Below are positions 1-16,358 of a DNA stretch of 64,000 nt, piece after piece. Both the position numbers and the translations under genes were made by a program. Position 1 is the first letter of the stretch; every line of letters begins with the position of its first letter. Source of the stretch: Tsuneonella mangrovi (GTDB lineage Bacteria > Pseudomonadota > Alphaproteobacteria > Sphingomonadales > Sphingomonadaceae). The notes beneath the pieces were generated by a model. It made no database searches. It had not been told where the DNA came from and saw nothing but the letters and a program-made list of their open reading frames with translations. The stretch is from the NCBI RefSeq assembly GCF_002269345.1, contig NZ_CP022889.1, positions 1,984,001 through 2,048,000 on the forward strand, in the 5' to 3' direction.

Positions 1-377
1 GGCTGTTCACCATCGACCACGATCTCATGCCCGAGCCATTCAATGAGTTCCTTACTCGAAGAGAAAAGGGCTTGAAGCGCGAGCCGAGCGATTGGGGGAA
101 GGACCCGGGTCTGAAATCTCGCCGGGGCCACACGTCACAATGGCAGGGGCTTCGGGCGGCTGCCTTCATCCTACTTGATTGGCACGAAACGAAGATGGGT
201 AAGACTGCCACGATAAAATGGCTGGCAGACGAGCTCGCCCTTATCGAACCGAATGTCAGCAATGCCCCAGCCAGTGGTCAGAGCATCGGCAAGGACCTAG
301 CCGCCAAGTTTCGCCATTGGTGGCTGGACGAAAAGGAACCTCGTACCGAATTGGGTAAATCCCCTCGCCCCTCATAA
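1..377 (+). CDS. Hypothetical protein, 5' end off window
   Basis: The reading frame is already open at the left edge, so only about the last 125 residues are visible. A start at the ATG at 27 is possible, but the frame continues upstream of it. The visible part is basic and tryptophan-containing, with no domain I recognise and no tyrosine-recombinase signature (no R...HxxR...Y), so it is not obviously the integrase of the element. It runs in the same direction as the AlpA gene 53 bp downstream and probably belongs to the early genes of the same element. Function unknown. Confidence 0.5.
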   Translation, partial: LFTIDHDLMPEPFNEFLTRREKGLKREPSDWGKDPGLKSRRGHTSQWQGLRAAAFILLDWHETKMGKTATIKWLADELALIEPNVSNAPASGQSIGKDLAAKFRHWWLDEKEPRTELGKSPRPS

Positions 378-430
378 TCGGCGAATACCCTCCCGAACCG
401 CAGCGAACCGCCGGAGATAAGGAGGACCAC

Positions 431-700
431 ATGGCCGACCAGGCACCCACCGAAGTACGCGCCGATGATGCGCCGGAGCAGGACGAGGAGGAGCAGCGCT
501 CGTCCATCTATATGCTCTGGCCCGAGGTGATGTGCGAGAGCACGCTCAGCAAGACCGTGATCCAGCGCTTGATGAAGCGCGGCAAGTTCCCCTTCCCCGT
601 CCAGCTATCGCCAAATCGCGTCGCTTGGGTCCGCAGCGAGATCGAGGAGTGGGTCGAGGCGAAGAAGCGCGAACGCGTCTTCGAGGTTGAGGCCGCCTGA
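431..700 (+). CDS. AlpA-family transcriptional regulator / excisionase-like protein
   Basis: An 89-residue protein of the AlpA/excisionase winged-helix class. Residues about 28-80 carry the family pattern: a VM...STLSKTVIQRLMKRGKFP recognition helix, then PVQLSPNRVAWVRSEIEEWV, ending in a charged tail. Family members bind DNA and control integrase expression or excision of P4-like and PICI-like elements. The first 25 residues are acidic and probably disordered. The start is fixed by a strong AAGGAGG Shine-Dalgarno 5 bp before the ATG. It stands directly before the primase gene, the usual order in phage satellites. The class is clear; whether it activates the primase operon or acts in excision is inferred. 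Confidence 0.9.
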   Translation: MADQAPTEVRADDAPEQDEEEQRSSIYMLWPEVMCESTLSKTVIQRLMKRGKFPFPVQLSPNRVAWVRSEIEEWVEAKKRERVFEVEAA

Positions 701-776
701 GTGACGGGCCGCCCGGCCTGAAGCCGCAAGTCGGACGGCCCTAACCATCACCTTGGCTTGGAAAGGGAGACTTTCC

Positions 777-3227
777 GTGAATGAGTATAGTGTCCCCGAC
801 TCCGGGGACGAAGGCCTAAGCGTTGAAAACGAGTTTCTCGAAGCGAAGCTCGGGGAAGCCATCGACCACCTCAAGTGGCTCCGGCCGGACGGCCCGTGGA
901 CCCTGACGGCCATCTTCCCGGACGGCGGCCCCACCAAGACAGAGACCTTCGGCCCCGAGACCGAGGAGCAGTGCCTGCGCTGGCTCGAGGACCGGACCTC
1001 TGAGGGCATGAACCTATATTTCATGGTCAATCCGGCGCGTAGCAAGCTGCGCTCCAAGGCCAAGAAGGAGGACGTGGAGGACCTCGCTTGGCTCCATGTG
1101 GATTTGGACCCGAGGAAGAAGCCAGACAGTGACAGGTCTGAGCCTGTTGAGTGGTTCAAGAAGGAACGCGAGCGTGTGCTCGGGGCTTTGCGCGACTTCA
1201 CCCCGCCTCCTTCGCTCATCATCGACAGCGGGGGCGGCCTTCAGGGCTTCTGGAGGCTCGAGGAGCCGCTGTACATCGGCGGCAACAAGAGCGCGGCCGA
1301 GGAGGCGGAGGCCTACAACCAGCAGCTTGAAATCATGCTCGGTGGCGACGCTTGTCACAATTGCGATCGCATCATGCGGCTTCCCGGGACGATCAACCGG
1401 CCCAACAAGAAGAAGAGAGCTACTGGCCGCGTCCCCCGGGTGGCAGCGGTTCTCGAGCGCCATGATGACGAAGAACACATCTATGGTTTGGGCATCTTCA
1501 CTCCAGCCCCTCGGGTCCAGAGCGATGACGGCGGCTTGGTGGCTCCGACCGTGAAGATCAGTGGCAATCTTCCGCGCCTGAAGGACCTCGATGAGCTGCC
1601 GGAAGCGGTAACGCCGCGCACCAAGATGCTCATCGTGCAAGGCGATGATCCAGACGACCAGTTGCGCTACGATTCGCGGTCTGAAGTCACGTTTGCGGTA
1701 TGCTGCGAGCTCGTCAGGGCCGGATGCGATGATGATATGATTGCGGCTGTAATAACTGATCCCGACTTTGGCATCGCAGCCCATACTCTCGCCCAGAAGC
1801 GGTACATGGAATATGCCGCTCGGCAAATTCGGCGCGCACGCGAGGAGGTCGAAGAACCGATGCTCCGTAAGCTGAATGAGCGCCACGCGGTGATCAGCGA
1901 CATCGGCGGCAAGTGCCGCGTGGTTGGCGAAGTATTAGATCGCAATCTTGCCAGACCGCGCACACGCATCTCGAAGCAGAGCTTTGAGGACTTCCGCAAC
2001 CGTTACATGAACATCAAGGTCCAGACCGGGGTAAACAAGGACAATAGTCCGAGTTACACACCGGCCGGAAAGTGGTGGCTCGAGCATCCGATGCGTCGCC
2101 AGTATGAGACCATTGTTTTCGCTCCCGGCAGAGAAGTCCCTGAGGCCTACAACTTGTGGCAGGGCTTCGCGTGTGAGGCCTTGCCAGGTGATGCACACGA
2201 GCCCTTTCTCAAGCACCTGAGAGACAACGTCTGTAAGGGTGACGACGACCATTTCCAGTATCTCATTCGATGGATGGCGCGCGCAGTTCAAAACCCGGGC
2301 GAGCAGGGCCATGTCGCTGTTGTGCTTCGCGGCGGGCGCGGCACGGGCAAGGGCTCAGTGGCGCAGATATTCGGTTCGCTGTGGGGTCGGCATTTTCTGC
2401 ACATCAGCAGCGCGAAGCATCTGGTGGGCCAATTCAACGCACACCTGCGCGATTGTGTTGTCCTATTCGCTGACGAGGCTTTCTATGCAGGCGACAAACA
2501 GCACGAAAGCACCCTGAAAACGCTCGTGACAGAGGATACGCTCATCGTCGAGGGGAAGGGCATAGATGCTGAGGTTGCGCCGAATTACGTGCACCTCTTT
2601 ATGGCATCGAACGATGACTGGGTAGTGCCTGCCGGGGCAGACGAAAGGCGCTACTTCATTCTCGACGTTGGCGACGGGAAGAAGCAGGACAAGGCCTACT
2701 TCCGCGCGCTGCATCAAGCGATGAATCAGGGTGGCCAGGAAGCGCTGCTCCATTACCTGATGACGATGGACCTGTCCGAATATGAGGTCCGGGAGATACC
2801 GCAAACCGACGCCCTGCGTGACCAGAAAGAACAAAGTCTGAAGCCGCAGGAAGAATGGTGGCTCGATGTTTTGAGAAGCGGGGTCATTCCGGGAAAAGTC
2901 GAACTGGAGAAGGTGAAGATCGACGGAAGCGATGAAGCACCTGAAAAGCATGGTAGGTTTCGCCGCTCTCTCGGTACATATGAACGGCCCGGCTTGTTCG
3001 ATCTGATGCGGCTGGGGGCACCCGCTTTGAAGGCATCTGATCCATCGCTAGGTCGCTTCCTCCGCAAGCAGGGCTTTCAACCGGGCCTGATTCAGTCGGG
3101 TGGCACGACCGCGCGAGGGTGGCTATTTCCAGCAAATCTATCTGAGGCACGAGCAGCTTGGATCCAGCGGTATGGCGGGGACTGGGGTTTCGATGACCGC
3201 TCGGAATGGGTCAAATCGGACCATTAG
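777..3227 (+). CDS. Primase-helicase (AEP primase + DUF5906-type ATPase), satellite replication protein
   Basis: About 816 residues. The N-terminal third looks like an archaeo-eukaryotic-type primase: an HVDLD acid motif near residues 107-111, the SGGGLQGFW stretch near 151-159, and CDRIMRLPGTINRP near 196-209. The C-terminal half is a D5/DUF5906-like SF3 ATPase, with Walker A GGRGTGKGS near 519-527, Walker B VVLFADEAF near 561-569 and a later MASNDDW...ERRYFILDV segment. Such fusions prime and unwind DNA of satellites and phages. I chose GTG 777 because AAAGGGAGA lies 5 bp upstream; an in-frame TTG at 753 would add eight residues. It follows alpA, and the repeat array starts 15 bp after its stop, which suggests it acts at an adjacent origin. 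Confidence 0.88.
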   Translation: MNEYSVPDSGDEGLSVENEFLEAKLGEAIDHLKWLRPDGPWTLTAIFPDGGPTKTETFGPETEEQCLRWLEDRTSEGMNLYFMVNPARSKLRSKAKKEDVEDLAWLHVDLDPRKKPDSDRSEPVEWFKKERERVLGALRDFTPPPSLIIDSGGGLQGFWRLEEPLYIGGNKSAAEEAEAYNQQLEIMLGGDACHNCDRIMRLPGTINRPNKKKRATGRVPRVAAVLERHDDEEHIYGLGIFTPAPRVQSDDGGLVAPTVKISGNLPRLKDLDELPEAVTPRTKMLIVQGDDPDDQLRYDSRSEVTFAVCCELVRAGCDDDMIAAVITDPDFGIAAHTLAQKRYMEYAARQIRRAREEVEEPMLRKLNERHAVISDIGGKCRVVGEVLDRNLARPRTRISKQSFEDFRNRYMNIKVQTGVNKDNSPSYTPAGKWWLEHPMRRQYETIVFAPGREVPEAYNLWQGFACEALPGDAHEPFLKHLRDNVCKGDDDHFQYLIRWMARAVQNPGEQGHVAVVLRGGRGTGKGSVAQIFGSLWGRHFLHISSAKHLVGQFNAHLRDCVVLFADEAFYAGDKQHESTLKTLVTEDTLIVEGKGIDAEVAPNYVHLFMASNDDWVVPAGADERRYFILDVGDGKKQDKAYFRALHQAMNQGGQEALLHYLMTMDLSEYEVREIPQTDALRDQKEQSLKPQEEWWLDVLRSGVIPGKVELEKVKIDGSDEAPEKHGRFRRSLGTYERPGLFDLMRLGAPALKASDPSLGRFLRKQGFQPGLIQSGGTTARGWLFPANLSEARAAWIQRYGGDWGFDDRSEWVKSDH

Positions 3228-3242
3228 TCGCTTCGGATCGGA

Positions 3243-3487
3243 CAGTCGGATTTCAGATTGTATCCGACTGTGTGGAAATCTTCTCGATTCATGGCCTTAG
3301 GAGCATCGCAGTCGGATCGTCGCGATAGTCGGACACTTCTGGTTCGGAGATGCGCGAAGGCCAAAAGGGACCACCGTGCACTTAGCGGGACTTGGTCGAA
3401 AATTTCCGACTAATCCGATTATCCGACTGGATCGAAGAAAAGAACAATAGAGAGAGGCGGTTAGCGCAGTCGGATTACCAGTCGGAT
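3243..3487 (+). repeat. Iteron-like array of CAGTCGGAT, candidate replication origin
   Basis: Six perfect copies of the 9-mer CAGTCGGAT lie in 245 bp. Four are on the + strand (3243-3251, 3309-3317, 3467-3475, 3479-3487) and two are inverted (3262-3270, 3421-3429). Degenerate copies occur near 3327 (AGTCGGA), 3404 (TTCCGACT) and 3413 (ATCCGATT). Spacing is irregular: the last two copies are 12 bp apart, the first inverted pair 19 bp. The array starts just after the primase-helicase stop codon, where iterons of PICI/SaPI-type elements lie. It covers two AT-richer stretches (around 3276 and 3400). Role as origin is inferred. Confidence 0.75.
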
Positions 3488-3734
3488 AGTCGCTTGCCGA
3501 GGCTAGTTTGTGGCTTCTACCTGTTTGGGCTTCCGCCGCCTGCCGTTGCCGCCGTTCGGCCTACGCGCGCGGGCGCGAGATCGCTAATGCCGGAGCCGGG
3601 GCCTAACCTAGGGGAGGTCCGGGTCGAGCTTGCCGCTTCCCATACCCCGCTGGGCTTTGTCTTACCCACCGCCTCAGCGGGGATACCGCTAGGGCTACCC
3701 TCGCTTGCAGCGGAGCAACCTTGAACTTCGCTAG
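3488..3734. other. Non-coding stretch after the iterons
   Basis: No supported gene. It is more GC-rich than the repeat array and holds an inverted repeat of CCCCGCTG (3645-3652) with CAGCGGGG (3675-3682), which could fold into a hairpin with a 22-base loop. It separates the rightward primase transcript from the leftward HEPN-motif gene, so termination or origin structure are both possible. Confidence 0.35.
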
Positions 3735-4244
3735 TTACTCCGCCCGAGGCGGCATCAACCCGGCCTCGCGCATCATCTCATGCAACTCCTCTATGCGGGC
3801 GTTTGAGATGTCGTCCGCTGACCTAATAACATTCAATTTTGTCTCGAGATTTTCTATTACCCGGTCGCGGCCTTCTGGCGTCTGAAGGTCATCCATCACC
3901 TCAGCAAAGAAGCCGTGAATTAGCCGGTTCCTCGCTTCCAGCGCCTCGCCGAGCGTCTCAGCAATCTCATCGGCCATGCCCGGCACAAGAGCCTTCAATT
4001 CGCCGATAATCTGGCCGAGCGTTCTTCGGTCAAGCTTGTCCATGAATTCCTGAGCGAGCCTGCGATGCTCTTCCTCGTCTTCATCAAACCGCCCGTTCGT
4101 GATGGTCTTCATGGTGATAACTAATGTGCCGACTGTTAGCTCGAACATCTGCGCCTTGAAGGCGACCCTTCCAAAAAGATCGAATACGTCTTCTTCAGTC
4201 GCCAAAGCATTGCTTCCGTCTAAAACTAGCGGGGACACTAGCAC
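3735..4244 (-). CDS. Small protein with HEPN RNxxxH motif
   Basis: A 169-residue, mostly helical, acidic protein. The segment EARNRLIHGFF at about 103-113 contains R105-N-R-L-I-H110, the RNxxxH form of the HEPN ribonuclease signature, and the flanking sequence predicts amphipathic helices. HEPN proteins are common toxins or effectors in defence modules, but the motif alone does not prove nuclease activity, and similar ARNRLIHGFF segments occur in uncharacterised families. No nucleotidyltransferase antitoxin is adjacent. It is convergent with the primase transcript and starts upstream of a rightward hypothetical gene. Start at the ATG at 4244, preceded by AAAGGAGAA on the minus strand. Confidence 0.65.
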   Translation of the reverse strand: MLVSPLVLDGSNALATEEDVFDLFGRVAFKAQMFELTVGTLVITMKTITNGRFDEDEEEHRRLAQEFMDKLDRRTLGQIIGELKALVPGMADEIAETLGEALEARNRLIHGFFAEVMDDLQTPEGRDRVIENLETKLNVIRSADDISNARIEELHEMMREAGLMPPRAE

Positions 4245-4335
4245 CGCACATTCTCCTTTCGTACCGAATTAGCGAAATCGCCACGGCCGCCCGGCTGTGG
4301 CTTCCTCCGTCTGTGATGAACAGAAGGAGGATCAC

Positions 4336-4758
4336 ATGAATAACGACCAGCAGATGGCCGCCCGGCTAGGCCGCTTCGAGGATTGGACTGAGGGCGAGAT
4401 CGCTTACATGATCAGAGAGCTCGGCAGCGGGATGTGCCGGGACAAGACAGAGCGCTTCGAGGGCTATTGGGGAGCGTTCACCGCGCTCAAGGTCGCCAAT
4501 GTGTTCACCTCTCACGGCGACACACCGATGGCAAATGAGTTGGCGGTTGCATGGATAGGTGCGCTCGCCGCCTACGCGCTTAATTCGACCTATTGGGGAA
4601 ATGAGGTGGCGCCTGCGGGCCCGGCAGACTGCGAAGCGGAGTACAAGACCATCGTCTGCGCTCTGACGATGATCGAGCACGCTGCTCGTCCCATTCAGTA
4701 CGCTCATGGCCTCCACGACCTGCACCTCAGCGTGAGGGGGGCTCTTGAACTCCCTTAG
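4336..4758 (+). CDS. Hypothetical element-encoded protein
   Basis: 140 residues from the ATG preceded by AGAAGGAGG at 4322-4330. The frame extends 13 codons further upstream, but the Shine-Dalgarno argues for this start. The protein is acidic, with repeated Trp residues and two moderately hydrophobic helices (around 58-85). I recognise no catalytic motif or domain. It sits between the HEPN-motif gene (divergent) and the nuclease-like gene (convergent), so it is probably transcribed alone. Likely accessory cargo; function unknown. Confidence 0.65.
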   Translation: MNNDQQMAARLGRFEDWTEGEIAYMIRELGSGMCRDKTERFEGYWGAFTALKVANVFTSHGDTPMANELAVAWIGALAAYALNSTYWGNEVAPAGPADCEAEYKTIVCALTMIEHAARPIQYAHGLHDLHLSVRGALELP

Positions 4759-4816
4759 GTCATTGTAGCTGGGGTCAGCTTCCACTCTTCGCTGGCTCCA
4801 GCTGCCGTGGCCGAGG

Positions 4817-5233
4817 TCAAGGCTCTCCGCTCGGGTTTCCGAGCCTCTGCCAGGCCTCTTCGTACTCGGGAATCGCGTAGTGTTTCGGCTCCAGCCAATG
4901 AGACACTACTCCGGTTGCGTTGACAGTTCGGGTAGCAAGCCGCCGAACCTCCTCCATTGTGAGGATGTAGCAAATGGGCGTATCAGAGTTGGCCCGTAGG
5001 GTTATCACCCACCATGGGGACCGGAGGTTGTCGAGCGAACTTCCAAGTGGAACAGCTGAGCGCTTCGACAGGGCCTTCGACTGTATGGGCAGGACAGTGG
5101 CCTCGTCATCGCTGGCCGCATAAAGGTCTGCGCCTCGGGCGTTTCTCACTGTTGGCATAACATGCCATCCACGCCGGGCGAGTTCCCGGGCAACGTGGTA
5201 CAGCCCCGAGTTGCCAGTCAATTGATGGCGCAC
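4817..5233 (-). CDS. PD-(D/E)XK-like small protein next to type III R-M
   Basis: 138 residues starting with GTG at 5233. The N-terminus reads like a small restriction-endonuclease-fold protein: GNSGLYHVARELARRGW (helix, residues 7-23), then GAD (about 34-36) and, after a turn, PIQSK (about 49-53), a possible D...QxK variant of the PD-(D/E)XK core. The rest has no clear features. It lies 43 bp downstream of res on the same strand and is probably co-transcribed with mod-res. It could be a nuclease, a nuclease-fold regulator or an unrelated accessory protein. The fold assignment is inference from a weak motif. Confidence 0.5.
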   Translation of the reverse strand: MRHQLTGNSGLYHVARELARRGWHVMPTVRNARGADLYAASDDEATVLPIQSKALSKRSAVPLGSSLDNLRSPWWVITLRANSDTPICYILTMEEVRRLATRTVNATGVVSHWLEPKHYAIPEYEEAWQRLGNPSGEP

Positions 5234-5275
5234 ACCCCCCCCTTTTTAAGCCTGAGAAATCGTCAACGGGGTCAA

Positions 5276-8068: not shown

Positions 8069-10019
8069 GAGGTATCCGCTCCAACAAGACGAGATTTTTT
8101 TGCATACGGGGCGCAAGGGACAGTGTCGTGGAATCGTCCACCTTGTCACCTCGCAAGATAAGAGTGTCGCTCTTCCGAAGACCAAGCTGGTCTGCCGTCT
8201 CTGATGAAAAGGCGCCTAAGCAAACAAATAAACGCCCACTCTCTTTCTCGTCTTCTTGTACAAACTCAAAGACTTCAACACCTCCAACATTGTGCATGGT
8301 CAGCTGGGAACCCAATCTCACTCCAGCGGCCTTCAGCACTAACTCCCAAGCGACGGCTAAATCATCGGCGCCTTCCACCACCGGTGGAGCATTTGCACCG
8401 TCCACAATTCCTTTGATGTATGATTGACCGGTCATCTCACTACGCGCCATGAAATGATTCTCTACTGTGAGCGACGATGGTCGTGCGCGAAAAATGCGGA
8501 ACCCGAGTTCTTCATTTATCGCCTTAGCAGCCCGTCGGAGGCGCTCAGCAGTGATCTCAAAAATGGTTGTGTATCCAGCTTCAACTGCGTTCTTTCCAGA
8601 TTCCTCAGACTCATCTGGTTCTTCTGGAGCTTGTACCAACACCCAATTGCGGGCCTTCCCGTCACGAGCATTTTGCTCCCAGACGGCTTGTCCGGTCGAC
8701 CCCGAACCTGCAAAGAAGTCGATAATGAGATCCCCCTCGTCAGTCAGCGACTGGAATAGTCTGCTTAGAACTGCCGTAGATTTTGGATCGTCAAAAACTT
8801 TGGCTTCCATGAGGCTGTCTAGTGCGGAGGAAGCGCCACTCCGGTCCTGATAGAACGTCGAAGGAGGCGCCCACTCCTCTTGCTCATGAAGATACTTCTT
8901 AATGCGGATTCGTTTGGCCCTGCCGGTCGGGTAAATCAGCTTACCCTCCGCGTCTAAGCGCTGCATAGTCGGCAGCTCATACCTCCATCCATTGTCGGGT
9001 GGTTTGTGGCCCTTAAAATCATAAACGAGGTTCTCTCGGTAGTTCGGACTCGAACTGTTATCAGAAGTCCACACGCCACCGGCATCGATAAAATTATAAT
9101 GCGAGTGGGCTTTGGAAGGATTTCCTTCCGGCAGACTATCATACCACTCCCGGAGCTCGTCTTTCGCAGATTCGAAGTCTTCGCCATGCTTGTCCAAAAG
9201 CTCCCGCTCCTTGGCGTAGACAACCTCAAGTCCGGTTTTGCGCTCTCTCCAGACTGTGTTCAATTCCTTGAGATGCTGCCGGTCTCGTGCATAAATAAGA
9301 ATGTAATCCTGCCCCCCGGCCGTCAGCTTGGCGTCACCTTTTCGCCCGCCTTGCCACGTCATCATGTCGACGAAGTTTTCGGCCCCAAAGACTGCATCCA
9401 GAAGCAGGCGCAGGTGATGTAATTCGTTGTTGTCGATTGAAGCTAAAAACACGCCATCTCTGCGCAATAGATGCCTCGCCACCACCAAGCGAGGGAACAT
9501 CATAGTCAGCCACGGCGCATGCTTTTTACCGCCCTTTTCAATCTTGCTGACATTGGCCTGACCCTGATCATCCAACTGCCCGCTTTCACGAAGGTAATCC
9601 GCCTCAGAAATTGCAAACTTGTCGTTATAGGTGAAAGTCTTGCCAGTATTATACGGTGGATCGACATAGATGAGCTTGGCCTTCCCACGGTACCCCGCTT
9701 TGAGGACCTTAAGGACTTGAAGGTTATCGCCCTCAATCAAGATGTCTCTTGCCGATGCCCAGTTTAGCGAAGCCTTTTCGTCTGGGATCAAAGTAGCTGT
9801 GGTGGCTGCACGAGCTTCGGCTCTAGCATTTTCGATGCCAGGCCATGTGAACGCAAATGACGCGGCATCCCCATCTGCAGCGCCTAAAGCAGCTAGAAGC
9901 TGCGGAGCGTCCAGCTCCCCATCCGGAAACGCGGAAGGCACAAGATCACGGATATGCCCTAGCAGCTCTTCAAGTGCGTCTTGGGTTGGCTCGGACGTTA
10001 CGTTTGAAATTTCAGCCAT
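8052..10019 (-). CDS. mod: Type III DNA methyltransferase subunit Mod
   Basis: 655 residues from the ATG at 10019, which has a GAAGGG ribosome site. It is a beta-class amino-methyltransferase: motif IV DPPYNTG at about 120-126, then a long target-recognition region, and motif I FFAGSGSTG near residue 436. It would methylate adenine in the recognition site for both protection and cleavage by the complex. No homopolymer or tetranucleotide tract that would suggest phase variation is obvious at the 5' end. It is followed by res with a 17 bp overlap, and it faces a divergent SeqA-N/RAMA-like gene across 347 bp. Confidence 0.95.
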   Translation of the reverse strand: MAEISNVTSEPTQDALEELLGHIRDLVPSAFPDGELDAPQLLAALGAADGDAASFAFTWPGIENARAEARAATTATLIPDEKASLNWASARDILIEGDNLQVLKVLKAGYRGKAKLIYVDPPYNTGKTFTYNDKFAISEADYLRESGQLDDQGQANVSKIEKGGKKHAPWLTMMFPRLVVARHLLRRDGVFLASIDNNELHHLRLLLDAVFGAENFVDMMTWQGGRKGDAKLTAGGQDYILIYARDRQHLKELNTVWRERKTGLEVVYAKERELLDKHGEDFESAKDELREWYDSLPEGNPSKAHSHYNFIDAGGVWTSDNSSSPNYRENLVYDFKGHKPPDNGWRYELPTMQRLDAEGKLIYPTGRAKRIRIKKYLHEQEEWAPPSTFYQDRSGASSALDSLMEAKVFDDPKSTAVLSRLFQSLTDEGDLIIDFFAGSGSTGQAVWEQNARDGKARNWVLVQAPEEPDESEESGKNAVEAGYTTIFEITAERLRRAAKAINEELGFRIFRARPSSLTVENHFMARSEMTGQSYIKGIVDGANAPPVVEGADDLAVAWELVLKAAGVRLGSQLTMHNVGGVEVFEFVQEDEKESGRLFVCLGAFSSETADQLGLRKSDTLILRGDKVDDSTTLSLAPRMQKNLVLLERIPREISL

Positions 10020-10278
10020 AGACCCTTCGAAAGATAAAATTGCCCAGCCGACCTCAGCCAGCCGCACCAAAGCCAAGCCACCCCCAAAGCAGAAATCACT
10101 TCGGACAGAAACGAGGCTTCGACACCAAGATTGCTCCCGCTCGACATGACAACCAATTGCTCAAAATGGCAATCATGCGGGCGGCTTGTTCCACAAGCGC
10201 AGCCCAGCGGAACCCCTTGATTCCAGCCATAGCTTCATTGCGAGCAAGCCGCCTCGTCGCAGCACCAAACTACAATTT

Positions 10279-10330
10279 CTACTCAAACTACTATTGAGTA
10301 GTTGACAGGAGTGGAGTGGTTCGAGCATAT
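10279..10330 (+). promoter_or_regulatory. Operator-like palindrome overlapping a TTGACA promoter
   Basis: The 347 bp between mod and the next gene holds a perfect inverted repeat: CTACTCAA (10279-10286) and TTGAGTAG (10294-10301), 7 bp apart. A second overlapping dyad is ACTACT/AGTAGT (10287-10302). A perfect -35 TTGACA (10302-10307) follows immediately, and a plausible -10 (GCATAT, 10325-10330) comes 17 bp later, pointing at the 10367 gene. A repressor on the palindrome would block the -35. The 10020-10278 part shows no gene. Confidence 0.55.
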
Positions 10331-10366
10331 GGCTGTGTCGGCCACACGAATCACGGAGTAAGGATG

Positions 10367-10816
10367 ATGGAAACGACCACGATTGAGATTGATTTTGATA
10401 TTCATAAAATGATTGAGGGAGAGCGCAGGAGCTTTTCCGAGAAGCCCTACATAGCATTGCGGCGCCTTTTGAATTTGCCGGAGATCGAAGAAAAGGATCA
10501 AACCACAAGGGTTTCTAGTTCGGGCAGGGCTTGGGAAGAGGATGGCGTGACGATCCCGCACGGGTCACTTGCCAGAATGGAATATGCCCGAGGCACTCAG
10601 AAGTACGAGGGACAGTTCCTTGACGGTCACCTCGTGGTCAACGGCGTGGAATATACATCGCTTTCCGCCGCTGCGAGCGCTTTGGCAAAGACGAAGAATG
10701 GCGGGAGTCCGAATCTGAACGGCTGGAATTACTGGGAAGTCCAGCTGCCCGGCAGTGACCGTTGGGAAATGATGGAACACAAGCGCCGGAAGGCGAAGGG
10801 CAAGGCAATCTTCTAG
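10367..10816 (+). CDS. SeqA-N-like / RAMA (DUF4357)-like DNA-binding protein
   Basis: 149 residues; the ATG at 10367 lies 8 bp after GGAG (10355-10358), and the neighbouring ATG at 10364 is an alternative. The first 38 residues (IEIDFDIHKMIEGERRSF then ALRRLLNLP) closely follow the pattern of the SeqA N-terminal ribbon-helix-helix dimerisation domain. Residues about 78-149 contain G..YTSLSAAASALAKTKNG and NGWNYWEV, the pattern of RAMA/DUF4357 domains, which are associated with restriction systems and may read modified DNA. A dimeric protein with such a reader, divergent from mod, suggests a methylation-sensing regulator of the R-M system. Both domain calls are by eye. Confidence 0.6.
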   Translation: METTTIEIDFDIHKMIEGERRSFSEKPYIALRRLLNLPEIEEKDQTTRVSSSGRAWEEDGVTIPHGSLARMEYARGTQKYEGQFLDGHLVVNGVEYTSLSAAASALAKTKNGGSPNLNGWNYWEVQLPGSDRWEMMEHKRRKAKGKAIF

Positions 10817-10840
10817 TATGATGAACAGTTTTCGAGCTGA

Positions 10841-10882
10841 GGCTCCGGAAGTGAGCGACTAATTGCCGACACTTCCGGAGCC
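10841..10882 (+). terminator. Rho-independent terminator
   Basis: Perfect 13 bp stem GGCTCCGGAAGTG (10841-10853) and CACTTCCGGAGCC (10870-10882) with a 16-base loop, followed by ATTCTTTT. It ends the 10367-10816 transcript and isolates it from the terS-like block. Confidence 0.85.
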
Positions 10883-10940
10883 ATTCTTTTATCAATAGTC
10901 GGCCGTTCGCTCGGCAACGGTCGCCAGCTATCGTCGGACA

Positions 10941-11438
10941 ATGAGATTGACCGACCGCCGCAAGAGGCTCTTCCTCGGAGAGCTTGCCCGCCACGGCATC
11001 CTCGTCCGTGCTGCGAGGGCTGCCAGCCCGCGCGCCAGCAGCCGGTACGGTGCGAAGCAGACTTTCCTCGACGAGCGCGACCGCGACCCCGAGTTTGCGG
11101 CACAGTGGCAGGAAGCGGTGGAGGCGGCCGAGGCTAGTATCGAGGCCGAGATTTACCGGCGCGCGCAGGAGGGATGGGAGGAGCCCATCTTCGGCGGCCG
11201 CCACAAGGAAAAGATCGTCGGCACTGTCCGCAAGTATTCGGACCGCCTGCTCGAGCTTCGCGCCCGGGCGATGCTCCCCGCCTATCGGGAGACGCACGGC
11301 ATAGCAGTAAACAAGCAGGTGACGCACACGGTCGATGCCGGGGTGCTGGGTGATGCCGTGGCGAAGGTCGCCTTGCAGATGGCTGCAAACCTTAGCCCGA
11401 AGCTTCCGGCTCCGGCCCGGGTGATCGACAATGGGTAG
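10941..11438 (+). CDS. Terminase-small-subunit-like HTH protein
   Basis: 165 residues. Residues 3-50 form an HTH of the TerS type (RRKRLFLGELARHGILVRAA, then a DPEF-AAQWQEAVEAA segment). After it come EAEIYRRAQEGWEEPIFGG and VGTVRKYSDRLLELRARAMLP, the conserved second half of small terminase-like proteins in alphaproteobacterial prophages. TerS selects the DNA to be packaged. In a satellite with no large subunit it would redirect a helper phage's TerL. It is the first gene of a close-packed block and overlaps the next gene by 8 bp. A pac-recognition role is inferred. Confidence 0.7.
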   Translation: MRLTDRRKRLFLGELARHGILVRAARAASPRASSRYGAKQTFLDERDRDPEFAAQWQEAVEAAEASIEAEIYRRAQEGWEEPIFGGRHKEKIVGTVRKYSDRLLELRARAMLPAYRETHGIAVNKQVTHTVDAGVLGDAVAKVALQMAANLSPKLPAPARVIDNG

Positions 11439-11832
11439 GGACAGCGCCCTCGACCTCCTCGCCTTTGCCGTGGCCTATCGGCTTATGAACGCGGCCGAGC
11501 GCCGCGCGCTTCGCATCTCTGCGCTGTTCGAGCTGGGGGAGAAGGCCCCCACCAGCCCTGAGCTTGCCGTCCTGTGGGATGAGGACCGCCTGATACGCGG
11601 GGAACGCGAGCCCGCCAGCGTCTATGACCGCTGGGTGTTAATGAAGGCCCGGGACGAGGCCGAGCGGCCCGCCTTCGACGAACAATTCTGGCGAATGCGC
11701 CGCAGCGACCTCGAAGGCGCTGGCTTCGAGCCGAATGAAGCGCGAGACGTGATCGCGTCGGTGCGCGCGTCCTTGGGCAACAGCCCCGGAAAGAAAGGAG
11801 ACGACAATGGGACTATTCAAGAAGCAGCATGA
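11431..11832 (+). CDS. Hypothetical protein in terS-like block
   Basis: 133 residues, Arg/Glu-rich, predicted mostly helical, with no signal or membrane segment. I recognise no family. The start ATG overlaps the end of the terS-like gene by 8 bp, and its end overlaps the next gene by 26 bp, so it is translated from one message with its neighbours. Part of a phage-derived block; function unknown. Confidence 0.65.
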   Translation: MGRDSALDLLAFAVAYRLMNAAERRALRISALFELGEKAPTSPELAVLWDEDRLIRGEREPASVYDRWVLMKARDEAERPAFDEQFWRMRRSDLEGAGFEPNEARDVIASVRASLGNSPGKKGDDNGTIQEAA

Positions 11833-12205
11833 GACCGCAGAGCAGAGCGGGTTGCTCGAGCGGCTTAACGAGCTCGCGCAAGAGCGGGTCGAGGCAGCCG
11901 AACGCGTCGATCAGGCCATTACTGAGATCGAGACAGCAATCGAAGGGCTGCTCGCCGCAGACAACGCCTTCTTTTCCGAAGTGCGTTCATCCGGTGCGTC
12001 GGATCATGGAACCGGCGGCCACCTTCGGCGGGTTATTCGAACCTTGCTGATGGGCCAGATGCAAGTCGCAGCGCCGAAGTTCGTCCGGTACCTCGGCATT
12101 CCATTCGTACCTGCCCGAGCGCAAGGCTCGATACGCGAGGCAGTTCAGCGAACGTCGGCCCACAACCTCACCGACCTAATACCGCGCGAGGAGACCGCAG
12201 CATGA
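11807..12205 (+). CDS. Hypothetical coiled-coil protein in terS-like block
   Basis: 132 residues. Residues 8-58 are a heptad-like, Glu/Ala/Leu-rich helix (LLERLNELAQERVEAAERVD onward), likely a coiled coil. The C-terminal half has a basic patch (HLRRVIRTLL). A clear AAAGGAG lies 7 bp before the ATG, so this gene has its own ribosome site despite overlapping the preceding gene by 26 bp. No family recognised. A phage scaffold-like or DNA-associated role is possible but unsupported. Confidence 0.65.
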   Translation: MGLFKKQHETAEQSGLLERLNELAQERVEAAERVDQAITEIETAIEGLLAADNAFFSEVRSSGASDHGTGGHLRRVIRTLLMGQMQVAAPKFVRYLGIPFVPARAQGSIREAVQRTSAHNLTDLIPREETAA

Positions 12206-12567
12206 AAAAGATGATTATCCGCGACATGACCGTGAACGAGATTTCGACCGTGGACGTGCCCGCCGTGAAGGGCGCGACCGCCGTTATCCTGAAGAGCGGC
12301 TCGGTCGCCATCCGCAAGAACGCAGCCGAGATCGCCGCCGGACAAGCCGAGCCGCTCTTTAAGGCCGCAGACTATGCCGATGCGATAATGGTCCGCGCTG
12401 GCGAGATCGCGCAGCAGACCGGCGTGACCGTGAGCAAGGCCCTCCTCGACCACTCCGGCACTGACCCGGTGATTATAGAGCTGGCGAAGGGCGAGCGCGC
12501 GGCCGAGATGGCGGCGATGCGCTCGAAGCAGTCCGCCGTGTTCGAGAAGAGCGCACAATGGAGCTGA
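12202..12567 (+). CDS. Small phage-associated protein
   Basis: 121 residues. The first 30 (MTVNEISTVDVPAVKGATAV then a hydrophobic strand and KSG) match a short N-terminal pattern, ISxVDxPAxxGAxAVxxK, that I know from small proteins and prohead-protease-like proteins of alphaproteobacterial phages. The catalytic part of a protease is not present. GAGGAG stands 9 bp upstream of the ATG, and the gene overlaps the preceding one by 4 bp (ATGA). Probably virion- or packaging-related ancestry; function unknown. Confidence 0.6.
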   Translation: MKKMIIRDMTVNEISTVDVPAVKGATAVILKSGSVAIRKNAAEIAAGQAEPLFKAADYADAIMVRAGEIAQQTGVTVSKALLDHSGTDPVIIELAKGERAAEMAAMRSKQSAVFEKSAQWS

Positions 12568-12890
12568 CCGAGGAGGCGGTCCTGGACCACTATATGGCCC
12601 GCTTCGAAGAAACGACGCGGAGGGCGCACACCGTGGCGCTCTCCGCAGCCATCGCCACAGTGAAGGACCGATGGCCCACCCTCGAGCTCGTCCGGCGCGT
12701 CTCGAACATCTACAGCGTGGCGGTCGAGGAGCTCGGTGCGTACTTCGGGCTTATTCGCCAGCCCGGGGACCGGGAGGTCTGGGTGGACGTGTTCCGCTCG
12801 CCCGACAACCAGCATCTCGTCCGCGACACGATGAACGTGAGCCAGCGCCGGGCCTACGGAACGATGCTGGCGATGCTCGAGGTGGCTTAG
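12558..12890 (+). CDS. Hypothetical protein in terS-like block
   Basis: 110 residues with two helical segments (EEAVLDHYMARFEETTRRAH and LVRRVSNIYSVAVEELGAYF). It overlaps the previous gene by 10 bp. No conserved catalytic residues, signal peptide or membrane segment. No family recognised. Its place inside the co-translated block argues that it is real. Confidence 0.6.
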   Translation: MELTEEAVLDHYMARFEETTRRAHTVALSAAIATVKDRWPTLELVRRVSNIYSVAVEELGAYFGLIRQPGDREVWVDVFRSPDNQHLVRDTMNVSQRRAYGTMLAMLEVA

Positions 12891-12892
12891 CC

Positions 12893-13075
12893 ATGGGCTG
12901 GCCGAATTACCTTCCGTCTCCCAATCGCCGCCGCGACGTGCACGGTGAGCCGATCGAGACGGTGAGCCGGCCTTGCCTCCGGTGCCGAAAGCCCTTCGAG
13001 AGCGAGGGACCGCACAACCGGCTGTGCGGTCCGTGCGGGAACCGAGCGAGCGATGCGAGCCCTTTGGCGGTGTGA
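12893..13075 (+). CDS. Small zinc-ribbon protein
   Basis: 60 residues; the ATG is 2 bp after the previous stop. It has a four-cysteine zinc ribbon, CLRC near residues 28-31 and CGPC near 45-48, with basic residues between them. Similar one-ribbon proteins are common in phage-like elements of this bacterial order. The last gene of the block; its stop directly abuts the stop of the convergent HTH/ImmA-like gene. Binding partner unknown. Confidence 0.7.
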   Translation: MGWPNYLPSPNRRRDVHGEPIETVSRPCLRCRKPFESEGPHNRLCGPCGNRASDASPLAV

Positions 13076-14002
13076 CTAAGAAAGCTCGACACTCTTACCC
13101 TTGTAGTCTCGCCATAGTCCAAGTCGCTTTATTCGGTACTCGACCAGTTGGGTCGAAGTACCGAAGTGTGCGGCAATTTCTGCGGCGGCAGCCTTTTGTT
13201 GAACCATGGTTCGCACGGCCTCGCGAGGTAATAGGCTCGCCGAAGCGAGGAAGTACGCATCGTGTTCTTCAGCCGTGTCATATGTGCGTCCATATGCCCC
13301 AGCGATCTTCGCAATTTTGACAAGCTTATGTCCGAGAAGGATGTGCCAATATTCCTCAAGCAAGGTCACGCGTTGTCGCTCGACAGTATGCGTGTCGTTT
13401 AAGAGCACGACCCATCGGTCCTGTGCCGAATTGAGTGGAACGCTCATGGCCGACCACTCAGCGCTCGACGCTCCCGATAGCCGTTGCCGTTCTGGGCGGC
13501 TCAGGCACTCCGATTGGGTAAGGAATTCGACAGTGACACCCGCGACACGAAGACCAAGCGAATTGAGCGCCGACTGATCGTCAAGCCCGAGGTCTGACCG
13601 GAAATCCTCTGCGATGCGCTCGAGCTCTTCTTTCGATAGCTCGACGGGATCATCGAACTCGTCTTCCTCCGAAAAATTGGGTTCGTTCTCGCGATACTGC
13701 TCTCTAAGACACGCCGCCGCCGAAAGTAGGGTCTGAACGGTCTGAGAGCTGGTCCCTTTAGCCGCTCGGAAGTGCACGAATGCGACTTCCTCGAACTCGA
13801 GGCCCTCATCGTGGGCGTCGGGACCGAGCCATTCCAGAAGCCTGATCTTCGTATTGTTATCAGGCGAGCCTTCGCCTCTGTTGATCCTTGCGAGCGTCGA
13901 AAAACTTACGCCGACGATCTTGGAGAGCGCGCGAACACTTAGGCCCTCGCGCCCCATCTTTCCCTTAACTGCTTCTACAAGCTTTTTATCGAAGTCCGTC
14001 AT
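13076..14002 (-). CDS. XRE-type HTH with ImmA/IrrE-like domain, altered zinc motif
   Basis: 308 residues from the ATG at 14002; an upstream start at 14053 would read through the operator-like DNA. Residues about 20-45 are an XRE helix-turn-helix (LSVRALSKIVGVSFSTLARI). The C-terminal half has the ImmA/IrrE layout, with EEYWHILLGH at 216-225 and TAEEHDAYFLASASLLP at about 243-259. The canonical zinc site is HExxH, but here the first His is Glu (E-E-Y-W-H), so metal binding may be lost or altered. HTH-ImmA proteins control phage and ICE induction or cleave repressors; this one may only sense. Divergent from the E2-like gene, with dyads between them. Confidence 0.8.
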   Translation of the reverse strand: MTDFDKKLVEAVKGKMGREGLSVRALSKIVGVSFSTLARINRGEGSPDNNTKIRLLEWLGPDAHDEGLEFEEVAFVHFRAAKGTSSQTVQTLLSAAACLREQYRENEPNFSEEDEFDDPVELSKEELERIAEDFRSDLGLDDQSALNSLGLRVAGVTVEFLTQSECLSRPERQRLSGASSAEWSAMSVPLNSAQDRWVVLLNDTHTVERQRVTLLEEYWHILLGHKLVKIAKIAGAYGRTYDTAEEHDAYFLASASLLPREAVRTMVQQKAAAAEIAAHFGTSTQLVEYRIKRLGLWRDYKGKSVELS

Positions 14003-14009
14003 CTCCACC

Positions 14010-14080
14010 TGTGCGAATTGCACGCCTTGACACGGCGCGGCCTGATCCATCATTGTGTGCTGGTGACACAGATTCGCACA
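14010..14080. promoter_or_regulatory. Divergent control region with paired operator-like sites
   Basis: TGTGCGAAT (14010-14018) is repeated as its reverse complement ATTCGCACA (14072-14080). Between them lie a smaller dyad, TGTGT/ACACA (14054-14058 and 14066-14070), and a TTGACA hexamer (14027-14032) pointing rightwards. The left copy also forms GTGC/GCAC (14011-14023). This is a good candidate binding region for the HTH protein encoded leftwards. Confidence 0.5.
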
Positions 14081-15079
14081 TCCGATTCGGAAAGGGAAGC
14101 CCTGATTGATGAGGGGGTGCTTTCTGCGTTGCGGCTAATCGGCGTGGCCTTGGATGAACGTCGTATCGTTAGGGTTAAGAATCAGGGCCTTGTTGTCCTC
14201 GATACCGAGCCCGCCACAACTCAAGAAGTGGACCCAATTGATGAACAACAATCGCAACGACCCGCAGCCGGGACGCGGCAACGGACCGCCCGACGGAAAG
14301 GGCCGCCCCGACGACAAGGGGCCACCTCCGGATCGCGGTCGTCCGGTGCGGGATCACGGCTCGGCAGCCTCGTCTCCCGCTACGAACGGCAGCTAGGTGA
14401 TGTCGAGGAAGCCTATCCCGGTAGTAAGCTCCTCCCCGACGAAGACGGACTTTGGCTCTTCGCCCCTAGCCTGATCTTGGAAGGCCTCGGGCGGAGAGCC
14501 ATTTTTCTTATCGCACTCCCCGACGACCCAAAGGTCGAGCCGCGCGGCTGGGCATTTTGGGAAGAACGGGGGGAGCTGCGCTGGATCGGACCGAAGCACA
14601 CAAATCTCTTCGACGGCTCAGTCTGCGCTTACGCTAATGCCAAAGACCATATGTGGTATCCGGGCGACGACCTCAGAGCCCTACTTGACCTCTATTCAGT
14701 TTGGGCCGTCCGCCATCTGCATCTTGAGTTGCTCGGGCAATGGGCGGGCCGCCAGTACGCATTGCTCGATCAGAACGGGCGACCCGACCCCTACTATCGT
14801 CTTACCCAGATTGATCCGAAGGAGCTTTGCACCTGTTCGTCAGGTAGGCGCTATGGTCAGTGCTGCATGCCAAGCGACCTGCGTGTCGGCATTCTTGCTG
14901 CGAAGGTATATTTCGAGCGGCGGCACGGCGGACGCGGGATCGGCGAGAGGAAACCACCCAAGGGAGTCGTAGCATTTCTGAACGGCGAAGGGCCCGCGCC
15001 TAGCCTGATCGAATGCCACGAACCTTTACGAGCCCTGCGCGCAAAGGCTCGGGCACGTCGAAGAAGGACATGGGGGTAG
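14057..15079 (+). CDS. E2 ubiquitin-conjugating-like protein with SEC-C tail
   Basis: About 340 residues if GTG 14057 is used; the start is uncertain. Residues 105-230 resemble an E2 fold. H181-T-N183 followed by DGSVC190 reproduces the HPN...GxxC catalytic element of E2 enzymes, with W200 and a YSVWAVRHLH helix after it. Residues 258-270 form a SEC-C-type metal motif (CTC...QCC). Residues 65-100 are an Arg/Gly/Ser-rich linker that overlaps another plausible short frame. Bacterial E2-like proteins work with an E1-like ThiF protein and a Ub-like protein in anti-phage or regulatory conjugation, but neither an E1 nor a JAB protease is seen here. The E2 match is strong; its activity is inferred. 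Confidence 0.65.
   Translation: MLVTQIRTSDSEREALIDEGVLSALRLIGVALDERRIVRVKNQGLVVLDTEPATTQEVDPIDEQQSQRPAAGTRQRTARRKGPPRRQGATSGSRSSGAGSRLGSLVSRYERQLGDVEEAYPGSKLLPDEDGLWLFAPSLILEGLGRRAIFLIALPDDPKVEPRGWAFWEERGELRWIGPKHTNLFDGSVCAYANAKDHMWYPGDDLRALLDLYSVWAVRHLHLELLGQWAGRQYALLDQNGRPDPYYRLTQIDPKELCTCSSGRRYGQCCMPSDLRVGILAAKVYFERRHGGRGIGERKPPKGVVAFLNGEGPAPSLIECHEPLRALRAKARARRRRTWG
14241..14396 (+). CDS. Short Pro/Gly/Asp-rich frame overlapping the E2-like gene
   Basis: A 51-codon frame (start MNNNRNDPQPGRGNG), rich in Pro, Gly, Asp and Lys, in another frame of the linker region of the E2-like gene. Its composition is that of the disordered N-terminal tails of bacterial ubiquitin-like proteins, but no beta-grasp domain follows because it stops at 14394-14396. 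It may be a remnant of a Ub-like gene, or the linker of the E2-like protein may be its shadow. There is only a weak ribosome site (AAGAAGTGG). Low confidence. Confidence 0.25.
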   Translation: MNNNRNDPQPGRGNGPPDGKGRPDDKGPPPDRGRPVRDHGSAASSPATNGS

Positions 15080-15089
15080 CCATACCGCC

Positions 15090-15110
15090 CGGTATCCCGA
15101 GCGGTATCCC
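15090..15110 (+). repeat. Direct repeat near element end
   Basis: CGGTATCCC occurs at 15090-15098 and again at 15102-15110, one helical turn apart, about 48 bp inside the tRNA-bounded end of the element. Phased short repeats next to an attachment site are typical of recombinase or excisionase arm sites. Function inferred. Confidence 0.4.
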
Positions 15111-15157
15111 TGAGGAACCGCCTGATCGACCCTAAGTCTCGAAAGTCTTGGAAATAA

Positions 15158-15232
15158 TGGAGCGGGCGAGGCGATTCGAACGCCCGACCCCAACCTTGGC
15201 AAGGTTGTGCTCTACCCCTGAGCTACGCCCGC
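15158..15232 (-). tRNA. tRNA-Gly(GCC), probable attachment site
   Basis: On the minus strand a full cloverleaf is readable: acceptor GCGGGCG with CGCCCGC, D-arm AGCTCAGGGGTAGAGC, anticodon stem CAACC/GGTTG with loop TTGCCAA (anticodon GCC), T-arm GGGCG TTCGAAT CGCCT, discriminator T and encoded CCA (15158-15160). The foreign element begins immediately after the 3' end, the usual place for integration by tyrosine recombinases. The matching repeat at the other end should lie left of the window. Confidence 0.95.
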
Positions 15233-15432
15233 TCACTTGGCGTGGCCGGAAGCATGCGTGTTCCGACCGGGGAGGCGCGCGATTAGCAGCGGGTCGGCAG
15301 GCTCGCAAGGGGAAAATTGGGCGCCGTCCACGATCCACGTGCAGCGGGCAGATTCCGCTTCACATTACGCCGCAAGCGCCCACATTGGGCGCGAACACAT
15401 TTGCATTCCTGACATTCTGAGGGGACCGATAC
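15233..15432. promoter_or_regulatory. Intergenic region between tRNA-Gly and cnoX-like gene
   Basis: 200 bp without a gene. It must hold the leftward tRNA promoter and the rightward promoter of the thioredoxin gene. A hairpin GCGCCC (15376-15381)/GGGCGC (15387-15392) lies about 40 bp before the GTG start. I can assign no sure -10/-35. Confidence 0.35.
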
Positions 15433-16356
15433 GTGGCCAGCATGGGGCTCAATCTCGACGAACAGAAGGCGGTCGACCGCTTCCGCAAGACGGTCGTCGA
15501 ACCGTCGATGAGCAAACTCGTCATCGTCGACTTCTGGGCCGAGTGGTGCGGGCCGTGCAAGGCGCTCGCGCCGGTGCTCGAGAAGGTCTGCGGCGAATAC
15601 GCCGACAAGGGCGTGGTGCTCGCCAAGATCAACGTCGACGAAGAGCAGTTCATCGCTGCGCAGTTCCAGGTGCGCTCGATCCCGACGGTCTACGCGATGT
15701 TCCAGGGCCAGCCGGTCGCCGACCTGACCAATGCCCGCAGCGAATCCCAATTGAAGCAAATGCTCGACCAGCTGCTTGGCCAGCTGCCGATCGAGGCTGG
15801 TGCGGAAGGTGGCAATGGCCAAGGCGCGCCTGACGTTGGGCAGTTCGTGGCAATGGCCGAGGACGTGCTGGCCGAAGGCGACGCCGAGCGCGCTGCCGGG
15901 ATATTCGCGCAGGTCGCCGAGATGGCTCCCGACAATGCACCCGCCCAGGCCGGCCTGATCCGCGCGCTGGTCGCCGCAGGCAAAGTCGACGAAGCGCAGC
16001 AGGTCGCGACTGCGCTCGATCCGAACATGGCCGAAGACCCTGCCGTCAAGACCGCCATGTCCGCGCTCGAACTCGCCGGAACGCAAGTCGACGAAAGCGA
16101 GCTTGCCAAGCTACGCGACGCCGCCACCGCCGACCCGTCCGACATGGATGCGCAGCTGGCCTACGCCGAGGCAGCTTATGCCGCGCACGATCGCGATACG
16201 GCCGCCGATACCCTGCTAGCGATGATCGCGACCGACCGCGAATGGAACGGCGGTGCGGCGCGAGCGAAGCTGCTACAGATATTCGAAGCGGTAGGGCTGG
16301 AAGACCCGTGGGTCGTCGCCACTCGCCGCCGCCTGTCGAAGATCCTGTTCGGATAA
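15433..16356 (+). CDS. cnoX: Thioredoxin-like co-chaperone (CnoX/YbbN type)
   Basis: 307 residues starting with GTG, 8 bp after GAGGGG; an ATG at 15442 has no ribosome site. Residues 10-120 are a thioredoxin fold with WCGPCK at 38-43. Residues 130-307 are helical TPR-like repeats (AEDVLAEGDAERAAGIF, AQVAEMAPDNAPAQAGL, and others), the CnoX layout. CnoX holds unfolded or oxidised substrates for DnaK and GroEL. The intact CxxC suggests redox capability, unlike E. coli CnoX with SxxC. The Lon-N-domain gene follows 2 bp later, a pairing common in alphaproteobacteria. Confidence 0.88.
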   Translation: MASMGLNLDEQKAVDRFRKTVVEPSMSKLVIVDFWAEWCGPCKALAPVLEKVCGEYADKGVVLAKINVDEEQFIAAQFQVRSIPTVYAMFQGQPVADLTNARSESQLKQMLDQLLGQLPIEAGAEGGNGQGAPDVGQFVAMAEDVLAEGDAERAAGIFAQVAEMAPDNAPAQAGLIRALVAAGKVDEAQQVATALDPNMAEDPAVKTAMSALELAGTQVDESELAKLRDAATADPSDMDAQLAYAEAAYAAHDRDTAADTLLAMIATDREWNGGAARAKLLQIFEAVGLEDPWVVATRRRLSKILFG

Positions 16357-16358
16357 GT

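Follow-up and report, generated by a model that had tools for sequence, protein, structure and literature searches.

The 64,000-nucleotide stretch of Tsuneonella mangrovi DNA analysed here (the window; positions 1,984,001–2,048,000 of a single-contig 2.70-Mb genome) begins inside an integrated element of ~16.9 kb, which spans window positions −1744 to 15204 and has its left end 1.74 kb outside the window, in the left flank L011 (window position = L011 position minus 10,000). The element is bracketed by a 49-bp exact direct repeat that is the 3′ part of tRNA-Gly(gcc), with one copy, attL, at L011 8256–8304 (window −1744 to −1696) and the other, attR, in the tRNA gene. Between the two copies lie an integrase gene, an AlpA-type regulator, a primase-helicase followed by an iteron array, cargo genes, and the small subunit of a phage terminase (TerS) with a conserved site upstream and five small genes (p1–p5) downstream. 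We consider the element very probably to be a phage satellite of the phage-inducible chromosomal island (PICI) type, integrated and seemingly intact, whose own TerS would recruit the terminase of a helper phage; judged from gene content, it appears to represent a new satellite family. A preliminary description of the window had proposed a PICI- or P4-like satellite, and its satellite interpretation is supported by the results below.

The TerS module, ~2.2 kb long, is common to all eight integrated elements that we identified: the upstream site, terS and p1–p4 are found in each, and p5 can be recognized by motif in seven. Every gene from terS to p5 starts by overlapping or abutting the preceding gene, and DNA homology with the relatives stops by 13071. 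The block that the preliminary description had called TerS-like matches phrog_4044 convincingly (Table 1). Upstream of the conserved site, the DNA is mostly unrelated among the elements, only those of Sphingomonadales BRH_c3 and Tsuneonella suprasediminis being still alike there. The site itself is a candidate pac/TerS-binding site or late promoter. When up to one mismatch was allowed, its pattern occurred in 5 of 298 genomes of the host's family, which are exactly the five carriers of the element, once in each and with zero mismatches; the reversed pattern, used as a control, gave five chance matches, all in other genomes. A single match was found in viral contigs, in a metagenomic fragment (L150) of a ninth element that also contains pieces of the integrase, AlpA, the primase (82% identity) and TerS (73% over 143 residues). 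Since the site is confined to the carriers and this fragment, it is, within these collections, satellite-owned and not a copied helper site.

The genes downstream of terS differ in how they vary. Between the T. mangrovi and Croceicoccus gelatinilyticus elements, DNA homology (blastn, pieces of at least 150 bp) is limited to two blocks, 10891–11812 and 12205–13041, and p2 is present as the other allele between them. The p3 protein matched phrog_24785 in all five members scanned (best E = 0.00019; T. mangrovi copy, E = 0.00057), with zero matches in phage records at E ≤ 1 and zero in viral contigs. At the position of p5 in the T. suprasediminis element, the DNA aligns but is diverged.

The family was delineated using TerS as a query. 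Among the 298 genomes, TerS was found in four genomes other than that of T. mangrovi at 90–97% identity, the next best match being a partial protein at 52%. When 84,980 species genomes were scanned, nine loci emerged. Five are elements, of which those in G178 and G163 belonged to the first set and those named L088, L090 and L092 were additional; the other four are weak (36–43% identity, partial protein). The eight integrated elements are those of T. mangrovi, C. gelatinilyticus (G178), Sandaracinobacter neustonicus (G163), the genomes G058 and G036, Sphingomonadales BRH_c3 (L088), Qipengyuania proteolytica (L090) and T. suprasediminis (L092), and they span at least four genera of Sphingomonadales. 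All eight have the same gene order, with the integrase at the far end followed by AlpA, primase, cargo, TerS, p1, p2, p3, p4 and the tRNA; in G178, G163 and L088, the primase takes up two open frames. That seven integrated relatives share this order backs the reading as a satellite. The target is tRNA-Val in four elements, tRNA-Gly in two and tRNA-Arg in two, and the attachment (att) repeats measure 33–56 bp in seven of the eight and only 12 bp in G163. Without one repeat copy, the lengths are 10,148, 10,196, 10,392 (G163, a value that depends on the 12-bp repeat), 10,605, 10,633, 10,668, 16,900 and 17,261 bp. They thus fall into two narrow classes, six elements at 10.1–10.7 kb and two at 16.9–17.3 kb, the long class being that of tRNA-Gly.

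The module and the integrases have different histories. TerS pairs are 83–99% identical, whereas integrases of different tRNA classes are 40–48% identical; within the Val class the integrases share 61–85% identity and the two Gly integrases 98% (the interrupted G036 integrase was left out, so that the comparison does not cover the Arg class). The module genes also disagree among themselves. In p2, the T. mangrovi allele pairs with that of L088. In p3, the alleles of T. mangrovi, G178 and G163 group together (91–96%) versus the other five, and in p4, those of T. mangrovi, G178, L090, G036 and L092 (85–94%) versus L088 and G058 (94%), with the G163 copy 65–67% identical to the latter two. Any two of the p2, p3 and p4 splits yield all four combinations; therefore, no single tree accounts for them, and the module genes recombine. 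Relative to the T. mangrovi copy, the ratio of nonsynonymous to synonymous substitution rates (dN/dS) of TerS is 0.06–0.23. The left arms of the T. mangrovi and L088 elements share 94% identity over 2,580 bp, compared with 76% over 2,159 bp for their chromosomal right flanks, so that the element arms are closer than the flanks, which indicates transfer and not common descent.

Table 1 Features of the T. mangrovi element, in window coordinates unless L011 is indicated.
Feature	Position	Strand	Evidence and conservation
Integrase	L011 8474–9751 (window −1526 to −249)	+	PF00589 and arm-binding domain; first gene after attL
orf2	1–377 in window; whole gene L011 9730–10377	+	First 22 nt shared with int
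AlpA-type regulator/excisionase	431–700	+	PF05930 E = 1.2e-11; phrog_2790 E = 5e-11
Primase-helicase (replication initiator)	753–3227	+	phrog_1829 E = 9e-96; DUF5906 E = 1e-20
Replication origin candidate	3234–3493	.	Eight AGTCGGA iterons flanking an AT-rich 60 bp from 3390
HEPN-like protein (weak), RNxxxH motif	3735–4244	-	HEPN_Cthe2314 E = 0.059, under Pfam cut-off; PDB best E = 0.079
Cargo, no family match	4297–4758	+	33% relative in L088
Cargo, no assigned function	4817–5233	-	82% identical in L088, there also adjoining a Res-type gene
Type III restriction subunit Res	5276–8185	-	PDLC03647 E = 9e-162
Type III methyltransferase Mod	8052–10076	-	PDLC03634 E = 4e-124
RAMA-like protein	10316–10816	+	Weak PF18755 (under cut-off); PDC-S14 E = 2.5e-7
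Conserved site GCCGTTCGYTCS-N9-GCCAGCTAY	10902–10931	+	8/8 elements, directly upstream of terS
Terminase small subunit TerS	10941–11438	+	phrog_4044 E = 8e-30; 84–98% identical in 7 relatives
p1	11431–11832	+	74–87% identical in 7 relatives; no family match
p2, two alleles	11807–12205	+	88% in L088, about 25–35% in other six
p3	12202–12567	+	68–96% in 7 relatives; weak phrog_24785 match (phage family, function unknown)
p4, divergent alleles	12558–12890	+	Confident helical model without structural match
p5, small protein with CxxC pairs (zinc-ribbon-like, by eye)	12893–13075	+	Motif in 7/8 elements; last gene of module
Helix-turn-helix (HTH) and IrrE-type (M78) peptidase	13076–14053	-	PF06114 E = 2.5e-15; PADLOC RmrA models, best E = 8e-11
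SEC-C protein, weakly E2-like	14018–15079	+	SEC-C 20.6 vs cut-off 20.4 bits; PADLOC E2 E = 0.014
Right arm repeat, CGGTATCCC pair	15088–15110	.	Candidate integrase arm sites; 22/23 bp common with L011 8429–8451
attR	15156–15204	.	49 bp same as attL, inside 3′ part of tRNA-Gly(gcc)
tRNA-Gly(gcc)	15158–15232	-	Integration target, left intact

The boundaries of the element agree with the chromosomal context. Its right end had been placed at the 3′ end of the tRNA, as the 49-bp repeat confirms, and leftward extension of the window revealed both attL and the integrase; the stretch from attL to the window contains only the integrase and one overlapping hypothetical gene, with no structural phage or conjugation genes, whose presence there would by the preliminary description have refuted its reading. 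The chromosomal neighbours, both named by eye, are a TonB-receptor-like gene on the left (L011 5968–8106) and a thioredoxin-like gene on the right (15433–16356). The thioredoxin-like gene adjoins a tRNA-Gly in all ten other genomes of the genus that were searched, and in eight of these the site is empty, the TonB receptor gene beginning a few hundred bases from the tRNA. In the remaining two (L131 and L132), the 8 kb examined contained no match to the TonB receptor, and the left side of the tRNA-Gly may have another occupant or be rearranged. Near both element ends, short words that differ by integrase class were found in seven of the eight elements: CGGTATCCC in the Gly class, TACCCC-type words in the Val class and CGTTTCCCC-type words in the Arg class. 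In four of the eight elements (T. mangrovi, G163, G058 and G036), int shares exactly 22 nt with an overlapping gene.

The AlpA regulator and the primase-helicase named in the preliminary description were both recovered with strong family matches, and the iteron-like array is likewise real: the eight AGTCGGA copies start at 3244–3480, and the count of the top 8-mer was not matched in any of 500 first-order Markov shuffles. A repeated 8-mer lies behind the primase in seven of the eight elements, the fraction of 500 Markov shuffles reaching the observed count being 0.000–0.016. The primase-helicase is 88% identical to that of T. suprasediminis, and these two elements have an identical iteron with identical spacing; the other elements use other iteron sequences. 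Because the iterons match where the primases are alike and differ elsewhere, we infer that replication starts from the iteron origin.

Variable cargo occupies two slots, one between the primase and terS and the other between p5 and the tRNA. In the first, the type III restriction-modification (R-M) system anticipated in the preliminary description is borne out for both subunits, and the adjacent RAMA-like protein is probably R-M associated. Two other earlier labels are weak. The protein at 3735–4244 does have the RNxxxH motif, which we take to be HEPN-like; its HEPN match is under the Pfam cut-off. The E2-like label of the protein at 14018–15079 has a marginal PADLOC match, the SEC-C domain barely exceeds its cut-off, and the PDB search gave zero matches at E ≤ 1. 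This gene and the HTH-IrrE peptidase gene form a divergent pair (13076–15079), perhaps a defence system of two genes.

Each of the eight elements encodes one or more domains associated with defence, as detected in scans of the relatives that took ten proteins per run and covered part of their cargo reading frames (for G058, by 99% identity to a G163 gene). Type III R-M is present in the T. mangrovi and L088 elements, the latter also encoding an ApeA-type HEPN protein. The others encode Abi_C/AbiJ and a methyltransferase domain (G178), a NaeI-type nuclease with a C5 methylase (G036), a C5 methylase (G163 and, by the same 99% identity, G058), an Eco57I-type methylase (L092) and a reverse-transcriptase domain (L090, E = 2.9e-7); where a methylase or reverse transcriptase stands alone, the evidence for defence is weak. 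The C5 methylase at L047 2138–3472 and the G058 gene encode 99% identical proteins in elements of two genera and lie within a 4.9-kb stretch with a DNA identity of 88.5%. The preliminary description had called the defence cargo unusually rich; the cargo is there, but it is the rule in this family, and defence cargo has been reported in other satellites, going by the accessible part of one account (PMC9122126).

From these features, a life cycle can be proposed. The integrase and AlpA, by their families and the att repeat, would excise the element at the tRNA-Gly att sites, and the primase-helicase would start replication at the iterons that follow the primase gene. The satellite TerS would then read the site adjoining terS and pair with the large terminase (TerL) of an infecting helper phage, steering satellite DNA into helper heads. 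The p1–p5 proteins would serve as helper-interference factors or as capsid or packaging adaptors, and the two cargo slots carry exchangeable defence genes. Our guess is that the helper is a visiting tailed phage.

We compared the element with known satellites, using parts of the published accounts. Like the Gram-negative PICIs EcCICFT073 and PmCI172, as described in the accessible part of PMC6092414, it combines int, AlpA, a primase-rep gene with its own origin, terS (optional in those PICIs), its own att site and accessory genes, including those for phage resistance, with a lack of structural genes. Specifically, it has a specific att site with 49-bp direct repeats and its own integrase, an AlpA regulator (AlpA or MerR in PICIs), primase/rep genes with the iterons of a predicted origin, and terS, which is allowed in PICIs. 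The large terminase, portal, capsid, tail and conjugation families were absent from the 20 open reading frames (ORFs) scanned with Pfam (17 candidate genes belonging to the element, p5 excepted, plus three further ORFs) and from the ten scanned with PHROGs, in accord with the preliminary description. The element thus has the anatomical features by which that part of PMC6092414 defines a Gram-negative PICI. The definition also includes phage-dependent induction, interference and packaging into phage particles, for which a helper phage would be needed. Unlike those PICIs, as far as the same source describes them, the elements reside in Sphingomonadales, and terS is present in all eight, in a fixed operon with p1–p4, which match known families poorly.

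The phage-inducible chromosomal minimalist islands (PICMIs) of Vibrionaceae, in the part of PMC10803314 available, share int, AlpA, a DUF5906-type primase core and independence from a resident helper prophage. Their iolg gene, which overlaps int, is reminiscent by arrangement of orf2, which four of eight elements have. They are inserted at fis, measure ~6 kb and lack terS or capsid-remodelling genes, in contrast to the elements described here, which are inserted at tRNAs and have the terS module; membership fails on the site, tRNA-Gly versus fis. Similarly, P4-like satellites, according to part of PMC8628076, resemble the element in AlpA, integrase, primase-helicase and a defence hotspot, and also in that the histories of integrase and hijack genes are uncoupled; their listed components are psu, sid, delta, epsilon and alpha. 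The P4-like alternative of the preliminary description was not sustained: PF07455, PF04606, PF10554 and PF03288 (covering psu, delta, epsilon and, with PF03288, alpha) had no match in the scanned ORFs (Sid, for which there is no Pfam model, was not searched), and the element has its own terS instead. Capsid-forming PICIs (cf-PICIs) encode their own capsid and packaging genes. The T. mangrovi element contains no capsid, portal or TerL gene, the TerL and capsid matches of the genome being located elsewhere, and was not assigned to this group. With the Gram-positive PICIs of the Staphylococcus aureus pathogenicity island (SaPI) type, again as partly described in PMC6092414, it shares a satellite-encoded TerS and an origin beside the replication gene; it differs in that no Stl-type divergent repressor pair was recognized between int and primase, AlpA being there instead.

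Several observations weigh against the satellite interpretation. A helper was sought and none was identified, and both excision and packaging by a helper are read from sequence. The searches made recognized no function for p1–p5; of the two module proteins that were folded, p4 gave a confident model (predicted local distance difference test score, pLDDT, 89) that found no counterpart in PDB or BFVD at E ≤ 0.001, and p3 a poor one (mean pLDDT 66) without a fold match at the same threshold. A role of p3 as a prohead-protease or scaffold mimic is conceivable; its only match is the weak one to a PHROG family of unknown function. In G178, no iterons were found in the stretch examined behind the primase (shuffle fraction 0.972), and no arm word is common to both ends. 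The G036 integrase frame (L045) holds a stop in an otherwise largely intact element, in whose p2 an open frame begins only at an internal start, and remnants of the module (p2–p5) are present in G005 (L074 9822–10172) and G133 (L073 ~13100–13770), with no complete element in the stretches examined. The remnants look like scars of former satellites, and with the interrupted integrase they show that some copies decay. Together with terS being a phage gene, the remnants and the interrupted integrase could suggest a degraded prophage, that is, a former temperate phage now without structural genes, of which a terS operon and integrase are left. Against this, the same reduced set of genes recurs in all eight elements, in one order and orientation and at three tRNAs, and neither selection on the module nor transfer between hosts is expected under decay; we regard this as extremely improbable. 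An ordinary integrative defence island, moved by generalized transduction or another route and bearing the terS operon as chance cargo, would be compatible with the defence-associated cargo of all eight elements and the lack of a known helper. It is the cargo that varies, however, and the terS module that is common to all eight, and the element brings a primase and an origin of its own, so we think such an island very improbable.

A satellite of a resident gene transfer agent (GTA), its TerS redirecting GTA packaging, is suggested by the only TerL (phrog_2) and HK97 capsid (PF05065) matches in the T. mangrovi genome, which lie in one GTA-like cluster (PF03354 had no match in this genome). The cluster (L107, G000:C1:1538000-1557999, ~7850–18710) comprises TerS, TerL, portal, protease, capsid and a 769-residue tail-type protein (by eye), and from its gene order we take it to be RcGTA-like. 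Distant TerS homologues, detected in 173 of the 298 genomes at E ≤ 0.001, are commonly located beside TerL in the host's family. They were dropped as a sign of a helper, as 9 of 13 usable loci matched the GTA-like TerL of T. mangrovi (L080) best, in a search of 49 TerS loci, several overlapping or short, in which each TerL locus was represented by its longest ORF; the 13 loci are those with L080, L085 or L103 as best query, and at least in L102, L104 and L105 the longest ORF differs from the TerL frame. A 19-row TerS tree with an arbitrary root groups the satellites with Pseudomonas phage Epa5 (support 99/95) and then with a 65-kb phage contig, G301 (87/77); the fork separating them from GTA-type TerS is weak (78/69), so a GTA link is not firmly excluded by the tree. 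TerS profile scores are 73 bits for Epa5 and 64 bits for G301 versus 50 bits for the best other homologue. Among phage records, TerS matched 37, all below 60% identity (best, 37%); in viral contigs, the single protein gave zero matches and the TerS alignment five relatives at 37–43%. Neither the G058 genome nor the metagenome-assembled genome G298 has an HK97 capsid match, and GTA heads hold only a few kb, versus 10–17 kb for the elements. We therefore consider a GTA satellite very improbable. Of the other host genomes, G178, G036 and G299 have two to four capsid matches each, and in both G163 and G300 the one capsid match lies a few kb away from the single phrog_2 match. Thus, by the families used, five of the eight hosts show no evident resident helper prophage of the HK97 type, and phages of other types would escape detection; nothing was found linking the prophage-type TerL and capsid loci of some host genomes to the satellite.

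Taking the element as a PICI-type satellite, a broader joint reading can be offered tentatively, its chance of holding in all parts falling somewhat short of even. Under this reading, the elements would be the first phage-satellite family recognized in Alphaproteobacteria, combining a PICMI-like excision and replication core with a new hijack module (pac-like site, TerS and p1–p5). Known redirectors are Sid/Psu, CpmAB, Ppi and TcaP, and the module would be unrelated to these. Its genes would be swapped singly across genera and att classes, element sizes of ~10.4 and ~17 kb would be set by the helper head, and the helper would be a virulent or visiting phage, making the satellites mobile defence carriers.

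Judging by titles and abstract beginnings of the matches listed, the satellite literature deals mainly with Gammaproteobacteria, Gram-positive bacteria and Streptomyces; among the matches listed, with few subscription papers included, none concerned alphaproteobacterial or sphingomonad satellites. Three features lend themselves to direct tests: the conserved site preceding terS for packaging, the element-specific iterons for replication and the arm repeats for excision. If the interpretation is correct, this conserved, recombining family of Sphingomonadales would extend phage satellites to Alphaproteobacteria, supply five new candidates for phage-hijack proteins and account for the movement of restriction and abortive-infection genes among sphingomonad genera.

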